From: a virus
DNA: 34,988 nucleotides
Reading direction: 5' to 3' (one strand)
Virus record (IMG/VR): IMGVR_UViG_3300003323_000248
Location: 1 to 34,988 of that record
Shown: positions 192-6,248 of the stretch, in pieces
Layout of the letters: each line of letters starts with the position of its first letter
Numbering within the stretch: the first letter of the stretch is position 1
Made by a program: the position numbers and the translations under genes
The notes under the pieces: generated by a model
What the model was told of the DNA's origin: nothing
The model's database searches: none
What the model saw: the letters and a program-made list of their open reading frames with translations, nothing else

Positions 192-755
192 CTACTGGAT
201 TCGCTTGATGGCCGGCGCGCGGGCCGCGAGGCGCTTCGCCATGTCCGGGGACTCCAGAGCCTTCGCCGCGTTCTCGGTCGCATGCTCGCCCTGAAGCTGC
301 AGCGGCGCGTCAGCGGGAGCGCCCCGCGTGGTGAACGTGCGATGGAAGTCGCAGAAGCGCCTCTGGAGGAACTGCTGTTCGTCGTTCGGGACGCGACAGA
401 TCGCCGACCAGCCGCCGAGCTGGCTGATCGTCTCGTGGATGACGGGATCGCCGAAGTCCACGGACGCATACGCGCCGACTTCGGACATCGCGCGTGTGAC
501 GCGATTCCAGGCCAGGAGCGCGCGATCCGTGAACGTGCCGCCCAGCTCGCGCACGATGTCCGCCGGCTTCGGCGGGAACTGGCCCTTCTCCGGGTGAACG
601 GCGTGCGCGTTCAGCGCACGGCGAACCTGCTCCAGGGCAGCGCCCTTGCAAGCCTCCCACCACACCGACAGCGCGAACTCGCTGGCGTCTTGTTTGTAGA
701 ACGCGAGTACCTCTGTGATGAGGCGGATGAACTCGGGCTGGTCACTCTTCTGCAT
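192..755 (-). CDS. DUF6475-like phage replication-module protein
   Basis: A 187-residue protein whose start overlaps the last 14 bases of the O-like initiator gene, so the two are probably translationally coupled. Residues 20-120 show a pattern I associate with the phage DUF6475 family: a helical N-terminus, QFPPKPADIVREL, then DRALLAWNRV and GDPVIHETISQLGGW. The family has no firm biochemical role. Its place directly after an O-like gene is where lambdoid phages keep a helicase loader (P or DnaC-like), so a role in loading the host helicase is a reasonable inference. No Walker A motif is visible, so it is not a DnaC-type ATPase. Confidence 0.75.
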   Translation of the reverse strand: MQKSDQPEFIRLITEVLAFYKQDASEFALSVWWEACKGAALEQVRRALNAHAVHPEKGQFPPKPADIVRELGGTFTDRALLAWNRVTRAMSEVGAYASVDFGDPVIHETISQLGGWSAICRVPNDEQQFLQRRFCDFHRTFTTRGAPADAPLQLQGEHATENAAKALESPDMAKRLAARAPAIKRIQ

Positions 756-1578
756 CGCTGCCCCCTTGGTTTGCCAGCCAGCGCTCGCCTACGGCGCGAT
801 TGCTCGCTTCGAGCTGCTCCTGGCGATTGACGTGTTGAGCGCCGGCCGGGCGCTCGCCCTTGACCCACTCGGCCTCGAAGCCTTGCCAGCCGCGCGCCAG
901 ACACTTCAGGATCGCCTGCTCGACTGTCCAGGATGCCTTCGAGGCCTCGGCCGCGATGCCATCCCAGGCGCGCGGCGTCAGCGGCGCGCGCTTCTTCCGG
1001 CGGAGCGCCAGGAACTCCTCGGCCGTCTCGCGCGTCAGGCCCTTCGCTTCGAGATCGACGACGGTGAGGGCGGGCACGGGTGCCGCGCGCTTGCGCGTGG
1101 CACTGGTATTCCCTGCCTCTGCCTCTGCTTCTACTTCTACTTCTGCCTCTGCATCGGTTGACGTGTTGATTTTCGTTGACCGCGTGTTGACACGTGTTGA
1201 CATGCCGCGACGCTCCCGGCTCTCCTGCTGCTTGACCCGCAGGTATTCCCGGCGGTCTTCGGCCTTGCGAAGCTCGCGGTACTTCTGGTAGTTGACGATG
1301 CGCCAGCCCCAGGAGCGATGCTCCTCCAGCAGGACGATGCGGCGCCCCTCCTCGTCCGGCGTGCGGCTCATCGGGTCAGGCTTGGCGAGTTCCTCGATCC
1401 CGCGCTGGATGATCTCCAGCGGCAGGCTCGTGCGCCTGGCGACGGCCTGCGGCGTCATGTCGATGTTGCCCTCCTGATCAGCCAAAATGATGAGCTGCTG
1501 GAACGTTACGAGCGCCTGCCAGGGGCCATTCGACGCCAGCGTTCCGTCGTACATCGATGCAAAGAGCTTGCCGAACAC
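742..1578 (-). CDS. Replication protein O-like initiator
   Basis: A 278-residue protein starting at GTG 1578-1576, with an AGGAA ribosome site five bases upstream. Residues 1-110 resemble the winged-helix DNA-binding part of phage replication O proteins (MTPQAVARRTSLPLEIIQRG, then WRIVNYQKYRELR). The middle is low complexity: a Thr/Asn/Ser stretch (about 125-141) and an acidic Glu-Ala/Glu-Val stretch (about 142-155). The C-terminal part ends with a segment around ARGWQGFEAEW, as in O-like and DnaD-like proteins. The Thr/Asn/Ser stretch is encoded by phased TGTTGAC repeats, matching the lambda arrangement where the origin lies inside O. The probable role is to bind the origin and recruit the host helicase with the next gene. 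Its promoter holds the same repeat as a palindrome, suggesting self-repression. Confidence 0.8.
   Translation of the reverse strand: MFGKLFASMYDGTLASNGPWQALVTFQQLIILADQEGNIDMTPQAVARRTSLPLEIIQRGIEELAKPDPMSRTPDEEGRRIVLLEEHRSWGWRIVNYQKYRELRKAEDRREYLRVKQQESRERRGMSTRVNTRSTKINTSTDAEAEVEVEAEAEAGNTSATRKRAAPVPALTVVDLEAKGLTRETAEEFLALRRKKRAPLTPRAWDGIAAEASKASWTVEQAILKCLARGWQGFEAEWVKGERPAGAQHVNRQEQLEASNRAVGERWLANQGGSDAEE
1115..1201. other. Putative replication origin: hexamer tract plus phased iterons
   Basis: Six tandem hexamers of pattern RCYTCT cover 1115-1150. Five copies of a GTTGAC/TGTTGAY repeat follow, at 1157-1162, 1164-1170, 1174-1180, 1185-1191 and 1195-1201. Repeat starts are 8, 10, 11 and 10 bases apart, close to one DNA turn, so a protein would contact them on one face. 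All copies point the same way. They lie inside the O-like gene, as the lambda origin does. That this is the origin is inference from position and repeat structure; no clearly AT-rich unwinding element is next to it. Confidence 0.55.
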
Positions 1579-1586
1579 GTGGTTCC

Positions 1587-1641
1587 TGTTGAGTAATGTT
1601 GACAGTCAACACTGTGTCAACATCCAGTCGGCACGTCAACT
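1587..1641 (-). promoter_or_regulatory. Promoter and palindromic operator of the O-like gene
   Basis: On the minus strand, TTGACA (1620-1615) and ATTACT (1597-1592) are 17 bases apart. The 15-bp palindrome TGTTGACTGTCAACA (1611-1597) fills the spacer between them. More copies of the same repeat lie at 1587-1593, 1616-1622 and 1635-1641. This repeat matches the iterons inside the gene. A protein bound here would block RNA polymerase, so autorepression by the O-like protein is likely. The -10 match is weak. Confidence 0.55.
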
Positions 1642-3510: not shown

Positions 3511-3539
3511 AGTATCGGATTTCCGAGACTCTCGGTCAA
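3511..3539 (-). promoter_or_regulatory. Early-type promoter with operator dyad
   Basis: On the minus strand TTGACC (3539-3534) and GATACT (3516-3511) are 17 bases apart. The spacer holds the perfect 13-bp palindrome CCGAGAGTCTCGG and a further CCGATA half-site overlaps the -10. The element matches five other promoters in the window nearly base for base. Transcription should start near 3504 and serve the 3474 gene and its neighbours. Confidence 0.8.
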
Positions 3540-5766: not shown

Positions 5767-5882
5767 TTCGCGTCAATCTCCAATAGTTCGGTAGTCGAAT
5801 GCTTGTCGCTCGCGCTGATCAGCAGGGCGCACCCCAGGGCCACGAGTACCACGGCAATGACCGTGCGGATCCCGCTCCTCAC
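5763..5882 (-). CDS. Small single-span membrane protein, 39 residues
   Basis: The start is GTG 5882-5880, overlapping the stop of the Cro-like gene as GTGA. Its own stop overlaps the next start as ATGA. The longer in-frame reading upstream lies inside the Cro-like gene and is rejected. Residues 7-24 (TVIAVVLVALGCALLISA) form one transmembrane helix with a basic N-terminus and a polar C-terminus. No family is recognised. Small membrane proteins in this early position are sometimes superinfection-exclusion factors; that is only a suggestion. Confidence 0.65.
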   Translation of the reverse strand: MRSGIRTVIAVVLVALGCALLISASDKHSTTELLEIDAK

Positions 5883-6139
5883 GCCGCCCCCTGCGGTCGG
5901 ATCGGATTTGGCTTGTGGCGCCCATCGCGGTACGTCTCTTCGGAGAAACGCGGTTCCGCCGGTCGCCACGCCTCATCATCGGCGCGCAGCTCGCCGGCCG
6001 TGATCGCTTCGAGCTTGAGCTGCTGATGGTGCGGAATGCCGGTGTGCTTCCACTCGGAAACAGTGTTCTCCCGCATGCTCAGCGCCTTTGCAATGGCTCT
6101 GACAGTCAGGTACTTTGTGAGGGCGTCGTCCATAGTCAT
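5879..6139 (-). CDS. Cro/CI-like helix-turn-helix regulator
   Basis: An 86-residue protein with a lambda-Cro-like HTH: LTVRAIAKALSMRENTVSEW then GIPHHQQLKLEAITAG, matching the usual Cro pattern of a second helix, a recognition helix and an IP-containing turn. It is first in the leftward operon and faces a rightward early operon across 145 bases holding two divergent promoters with matching dyads. The likely role is to bind the dyads of the repeated early promoters. The -10 box (6151-6146) ends six bases before ATG 6139, so the mRNA probably starts at or very near the start codon and is leaderless, as lambda cI is from its maintenance promoter. An alternative start is ATG 6133. Confidence 0.8.
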   Translation of the reverse strand: MTMDDALTKYLTVRAIAKALSMRENTVSEWKHTGIPHHQQLKLEAITAGELRADDEAWRPAEPRFSEETYRDGRHKPNPIRPQGAA

Positions 6140-6219: not shown

Positions 6220-6248
6220 TTGACTCCGAGTCTCGGATGTCCGATACT
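6220..6248 (+). promoter_or_regulatory. Rightward early promoter with operator
   Basis: TTGACT (6220-6225) and GATACT (6243-6248) are 17 bases apart, with CCGAGTCTCGG and the TCTCGGATGTCCGATA dyad between and over the -10. Transcription should start near 6255, 30 bases before the first gene of the rightward operon. Confidence 0.8.

Follow-up and report, generated by a model that had tools for sequence, protein, structure and literature searches.

A lambda O-like phage initiator whose linker iterons and promoter share a motif matched to five residues of the protein

The initiator gene and its repeats

The window, which is the whole stretch of DNA analyzed here, spans the 34,988 bases of a virus record in IMG/VR. 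The features at and around its replication initiator gene are as follows.

192-755, minus strand: neighbor gene, DUF6475 (PF20081; weak phrog_2289 match), candidate helicase-loader partner
742-1578, minus strand: O-like replication initiator gene, 278 aa, GTG start (phrog_678 match; full-length relatives L014 and L018)
763-1086, minus strand: O-like C-terminal domain, about residues 165-272 (profile and model), presumed helicase-loader contact
1111-1152, minus strand: (GCAGAR)n hexamer tract of 7 units, adjoining the iterons and encoding AEAEVEVEAEAEA, presumed unwinding or loading element
1157-1201, plus strand: five iterons, GTTGAC at 1157-1162, GTTGAT at 1165-1170, and GTTGAC at 1175-1180, 1186-1191, and 1196-1201
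1180-1290, minus strand: long helix, residues 97-133, between the winged helix, which it follows directly, and the linker (AlphaFold2 model)
1228-1254, minus strand: putative specificity residues R109, Y112, L113, K116, and Q117 (top mutual-information columns; residue-base rules)
1297-1578, minus strand: winged-helix body, residues 1-94 (AlphaFold2 model; generic winged-helix matches)
1588-1593, plus strand: degenerate copy, GTTGAG (one mismatch), beside the ribosome-binding site
1597-1611, both strands alike: perfect palindrome TGTTGACAGTCAACA (7+1+7) upstream of the start codon, presumed operator
1616-1621, minus strand: further exact GTTGAC copy upstream of the gene
1635-1640, minus strand: further exact GTTGAC copy upstream of the gene

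By profile search, the product of the gene at 742-1578 is a lambda O-like initiator (residues 57-267 match phrog_678, "replication initiation O-like," with E = 1.3e-17), for which recruitment of the replisome is predicted. An AlphaFold2 model, built on a 70-row alignment and with pLDDT mostly >90 for the winged-helix body, predicted a winged helix with a long helix, a disordered linker (residues 138-159), and an O-like C-terminus. The N-terminal domain alone matched no Pfam or PHROG family above the cut-off. Phage_rep_org_N (PF09681) did not match it either, and was matched by 3 of 14 relatives, the best at only E = 0.012; some relatives gave only marginal matches to replication-initiator and helicase-loader families. 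In a structural search with VIA-align, the winged-helix body retrieved only generic winged helices (Z up to 8.4) with the long helix barely covered, and RepA of pPS10 and other initiators appeared only among the weak winged-helix matches. Structural matches of the DNA-binding domain to viral models exist; a Foldseek search of the PDB returned no hit with E under 0.05, and a PDB sequence search none better than E = 0.27. C-termini similar to that of the window protein were found, by sequence profile only, in viral loci and 13 phage records. The DUF6475 neighbor, which is 66-74% identical in three relatives (L014-L016), matched the helicase loader family phrog_2289 weakly (E = 6.5e-5). In Pseudomonas phage KLEP17-4, a gene with an O-like C-terminal domain is followed by a DnaC-type gene.

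Five same-direction iterons lie inside the O-like gene with start-to-start distances of 8, 10, 11, and 10 bases, just as the first-pass annotation had described them. The cluster occupies gene nt 377-421, in the linker DNA between the long helix and the C-terminal domain. The repeats are real and far beyond chance: among 300 simulated sequences of the same dinucleotide content, none carried four GTTGAC copies in 45 bp (maximum 3, usually 1). Since the in-gene copies begin at gene nt 377, 387, 398, 409, and 416, and thus in different codon frames, they cannot be put down to repetition at the peptide level.

Ahead of the gene, the 6-mer of the iterons recurs in a perfect 15-bp palindrome, TGTTGAC-N-GTCAACA, which is made of the copies at 1598 and 1605, lies 19-33 bases before the GTG start, and is the sole instance in the record. 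The palindrome and three further copies around it had been proposed before and were all recovered here, the copies at 1616 and 1635 being exact and that at 1588 carrying one mismatch. The palindrome had also been placed in the 17-base spacer of the promoter of the gene; its position upstream of the start codon held, whereas the promoter hexamers were not confirmed. A candidate -35 hexamer, TTGACA (1615-1620, minus strand), is itself formed by a repeat copy and is followed 17 bases on by ATTACT (3/6). A scan for the sigma-70 promoter consensus upstream of the initiator gene found no site, so the placement in the spacer is unproven. The GC skew of the window showed no clear turn at the site.

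Elsewhere in the window, with 1150-1210 and 1580-1645 set aside, TGTTGAC is found at 11 further positions; Markov models of different order predict 2-9 for the record as a whole, and a mild excess may remain. Two similar stretches, CCGAGACTCTCGG / CCGAGTCTCGG, at 3517-3535 and 6226-6240, the second of them upstream of a P22-Cro-like gene (5879-6139), are possible Cro/CI operators and are unlike the GTTGAC motif.

A motif common to linker and promoter and the residues that track it

Searches with the window protein and the full-length relative L014 returned about 100 viral loci, and a genome scan for relatives gave 13 bacterial or archaeal contigs. About 60 non-redundant relatives formed the comparison set. 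The N-terminal domain is the part conserved across relatives, and the C-terminal domains vary. The closest relative of the window's DNA-binding domain, L111, is 63% identical over residues 1-125. In tblastn searches, 50,697 phage records contained no match to the L014 protein or to the N-terminal domain of another relative (L091), and 72,556 plasmid records contained none to the latter; a cultured relative of the DNA-binding domain therefore did not come to light in this way.

The first-pass annotation would have taken repeats that are not conserved, next to a protein that is, as a refutation. That criterion would have misled here: what is conserved is the arrangement of the repeats and their matching to the protein, not their letters. 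The repeat sequence varies among relatives, with 21 versions of GTNNNN (repeats at individual loci include GTTGAC, GTTAGC, TGTCCCG, TGTAGAA, GTAACG, and GTGGAC), and the layout holds. Linker 8-mers were shared 5.0 times more with their own promoters than with other promoters (z = 13.6), compared with 1.0-1.7 times for control regions. When the word was chosen automatically, as the most repeated 6-mer before the tract, and sought in the last 100 upstream bases, it was present in the own promoter at 32 of 50 loci, compared with 6.4 after permutation (maximum 16) and 5 in own control DNA. With assigned motif words, in part picked by visual inspection, fixed ahead of any look at the protein columns, and taken from phylogenetically related loci, the own motif was present in the promoter at 38 of 60 loci (permutation expects 7.0, maximum 17); in the other 22 of 60 relatives, the exact own motif was absent upstream of the gene. 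An inverted pair of the own motif was found upstream in 21 of 60 relatives, compared with 2.65 by permutation. Most promoter copies lie <40 bases from the start codon, some overlapping it, and some loci also have copies 50-70 bases upstream. Absence of the promoter motif where the gene sits directly behind another gene was considered as a pattern and was not significant (p = 0.28, with a crude gene finder). One relative that is 47% identical in the DNA-binding domain (L002) showed no clear shared motif.

In an unbiased mutual-information scan, R109, Y112, L113, K116, and Q117 ranked top for motif positions 3 to 6, and all five residues fall on the long helix 97-133 of the AlphaFold2 model. Individual residues went with individual bases: R116 with C at position 5 (12/12 loci vs 2/48), M117 with T at position 3 (10/12 vs 0/48), and K or Q at 113 with G at position 4 (24/27 vs 2/33), while all 30 loci with C at position 6 had R or K at 109. 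In leave-one-out prediction, the motif was given exactly by the nearest neighbor in the helix for 42 of 60 loci and by the nearest neighbor in the body for 23 of 60; with all neighbors under 60% body identity, the figures were 16 for the helix and 1 for the body. A held-out set of 30 loci came largely from a single clade; here the motif predicted from the helix occurred in 23 loci and that of the body neighbor in 20, and where the two disagreed, the helix was right in 4, the body in 1, and neither in 5. By the author's reading of the table, the automatic motif in this set has C at position 5 in every R116 locus. A relative on a Spartobacteria contig (L102) with 29% body identity has the same five residues and carries GTCAAC in both gene and promoter. 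The body of L111 is 66% identical, yet its specificity residues differ and its motif is GTGGAC.

The comparison shows that a motif is common to the putative origin and the promoter and is matched to five protein residues. That a single protein recognizes both the in-gene iterons and the promoter palindrome, as had been proposed from the window, is strongly supported by this covariation of linker and promoter copies and by the tracking of the motif by the five residues. Because changes in the motif go along with changes at a few positions of the protein, the O-like protein very probably binds both the iterons and the promoter site.

Genes with other DNA-binding domains were also seen. Three named O-like relatives of this kind (L165, L167, and L168) have different linker repeats, and in one of them, gp72 of Pseudomonas phage KLEP17-4 (L168:2024-2824), the linker of the O-like gene carries GTGAACAGCA repeats. 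Limnohabitans phage DC33 (L165), whose 39-kb circular record includes an O-like replication gene, is classified there among the Inoviridae, an assignment that seems mistaken. Three further loci (L015:3181-4014, L016:3190-4014, and L012:628-1395) have a different N-terminal domain and linkers with GGATCAAG repeats; L015 and L016 resemble the window closely in the C-terminal domain and in the following gene, as if the DNA-binding domain and the origin had been swapped together.

The hexamer tract and the putative origin module

The first-pass annotation had left out the (GCAGAR)n tract, which completes the module, as well as the covariation of motif and protein. The tract encodes AEAEAE in most loci and in others is read in another frame or on the other strand. 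Within the AE runs of the relatives, the Ala codon is GCA in 115 of 115 cases, compared with 22% elsewhere. The tract is not very AT-rich (GC 0.50-0.54 vs 0.64 overall). A 6-mer repeated at least three times was found in the 85 bp before the tract in 50 of 57 loci and in 1-8 loci elsewhere in the gene. Iteron spacing across relatives peaks at 9-11 bp, and the iterons stand at fixed distances of about 10, 20, 30, 40, and 50 bases from the tract, with a phasing to it of R = 0.66 at period 10 (control, 0.17).

L111 carries its entire module outside the coding sequence, ahead of the gene and in inverted orientation, as TGTCCAC repeats ending in TGTCCACAGTGGAC before the start codon, and L034 has a non-coding, inverted module upstream of the gene in much the same way. 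The tract is reversed relative to the gene in L039 and L054; its polarity is therefore not absolute. At L098:2986-3384, the frame stops within the iteron cluster, and the iterons and a GCAGAG tract run on in non-coding DNA.

Taken together, the comparisons suggest that a DNA-level origin module is very probably embedded in the initiator gene. Judging from its position and from lambda and Tuc2009, the in-gene module is most likely the replication origin.

Proposed mechanism and comparison with known systems

We favor a reading, to which we give a probability of roughly 0.78, in which the initiator would bind two sites, an origin within its coding sequence and an operator just ahead of its start codon, and would repress itself. 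The DNA-binding unit (winged helix plus long helix 97-133) would read a GTNNNN half-site, which in the window is GTCAAC on the gene strand and GTTGAC on the window strand. Several protomers would line up on the five helically phased in-gene iterons, and the origin complex would act on the adjoining (GCAGAR)n tract, where the strands would presumably be opened. By analogy with lambda O and P, the C-terminal domain would recruit the host helicase together with a helicase loader, the latter probably encoded by the adjacent gene. Upstream of the start codon, the same winged-helix and long-helix unit, probably as a dimer, would bind the palindrome and its neighboring copies and thereby repress its own gene. 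On the available comparisons, both replication from the in-gene site and autorepression at the palindrome are most likely; the protein may also count origins, as the first-pass annotation suggested.

Other roles for the two sites were weighed. It is unlikely that the protein binds both sites and uses the promoter copies for activation or for control of origin transcription instead of autorepression. Transcription in the vicinity of the origin (pR, pO) affects initiation in lambda (PMC3985674), and sites 50-70 bases upstream at some loci would suit such a role, but the position of most promoter copies, within 40 bases of the start codon and in part overlapping it, is typical of repression. A main origin in the upstream cluster, with the in-gene copies titrating the protein or handcuffing origins, is distinctly unlikely. 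The upstream copies of the window do adjoin an AT-richer stretch (GC 0.36, 1650-1699), and L111 and L034 carry the complete module upstream of the gene; most loci, however, have the phased iterons and the tract in the gene and only an inverted pair or single copies in the promoter, and the 22 of 60 loci noted above have no exact motif upstream at all.

Two further explanations were weighed. The promoter copies might be the operator of another regulator of Cro/CI type, the motif being common by chance or through a -35 TTGACA. TTGACA is indeed part of the window motif and a P22-Cro-like gene is present at 5879-6139, but the promoter motif of the relatives equals their own iteron even when it is unlike TTGACA (TGTAGAA, TGTCCCG, GTAACG), and a common promoter element is excluded by the permutations, which makes this explanation very improbable. 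The view that the linker repeats are a mere by-product of a repetitive protein linker is barely credible: although the model shows a disordered linker and spacers of the AEAEAE type are common, the iteron copies stand in different codon frames, Ala in the AE runs is invariably GCA, some loci have the tract in a different frame or as its complement, and the module of L111 is non-coding.

More broadly, and with a little less than even confidence, we propose that these phage initiators form a family whose long helix, next to the winged helix, would read a 4-base code with at least 21 specificities, the origin module would form an in-gene linker, and the operator would use the same code. If so, a few helix residues changed together with the repeats would give a new, mutually blind replicon, and the hexamer tract would represent an unwinding or loading element of a novel type. 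In the window, a single DNA stretch is both coding linker and presumed origin. With about 60 initiators matched from sequence alone to their sites, comprising 21 distinct specificities, much of the recognition code should be readable. The matched set would allow replication origins and initiator promoters to be predicted in uncultivated phages, and the joint evolution of initiator, origin, and autorepressor specificity becomes directly testable.

In lambda (PMC3985674), the initiator gene O carries an iteron origin with four 19-bp iterons in its middle, and the O protein, like the product of the window gene, has an N-terminal DNA-binding part, a linker, and a C-terminal replisome part. In contrast to the 19-bp iterons of lambda, the window family has short GTNNNN half-sites about 10 bp apart together with the (GCAGAR)n tract. 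The same motif in the promoter of the initiator, present in the window, is not described for lambda in the passages of PMC3985674 consulted. The Rep gene of lactococcal phage Tuc2009 bears the record note "contains origin of replication," as proposed here for the window gene, and has CAACCA repeats in its linker and one copy upstream, like the window arrangement, whereas its C-terminus differs (Rep_Org_C) and no (GCAGAR)n tract was seen in it. At this locus (L170:7096-7878), the linker repeats are CAACCA(AATG) and AGGATAG, and one copy each of CAACCA, CAAATG, and GGATAG lies upstream. Sharing of a motif by origin and promoter may also exist in lactococcal phages. The Rep of TP901-1 was considered and set aside; it has a few linker repeats and shows no relation to the window DNA-binding domain by profile.

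In the F plasmid (RepE) and other iteron plasmids, direct iterons serve initiation, and an inverted repeat between promoter and gene serves autoregulation by the same protein (PMC13028717). The origin of such plasmids lies outside the gene and the presumed one of the window inside; no sequence relation to the RepE type was found, and unlike the RepE type, the presumed window operator uses the same full half-site as the iterons. Geminiviruses have short iterons that vary from virus to virus together with a few residues of Rep, which has an iteron-related domain (PMC2974675, PMC12548392), but these Reps are unrelated rolling-circle initiators of plant single-stranded DNA viruses, and their iterons lie outside the Rep gene. 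A partial literature search found intragenic origins and initiator autoregulation, and no description of this family or of the matching of motif and residues; nor do the same sources describe the (GCAGAR)n tract, the helix code, or the joining of these features in a single phage gene. The parts are known separately, as the intragenic origin (lambda, Tuc2009), iterons with an autoregulatory repeat (RepE), and coevolving iterons and Rep (geminiviruses). The proposal that the lambda layout and the plasmid Rep layout are combined in one gene, made from the window sequence at the outset, is supported by the comparison with relatives.
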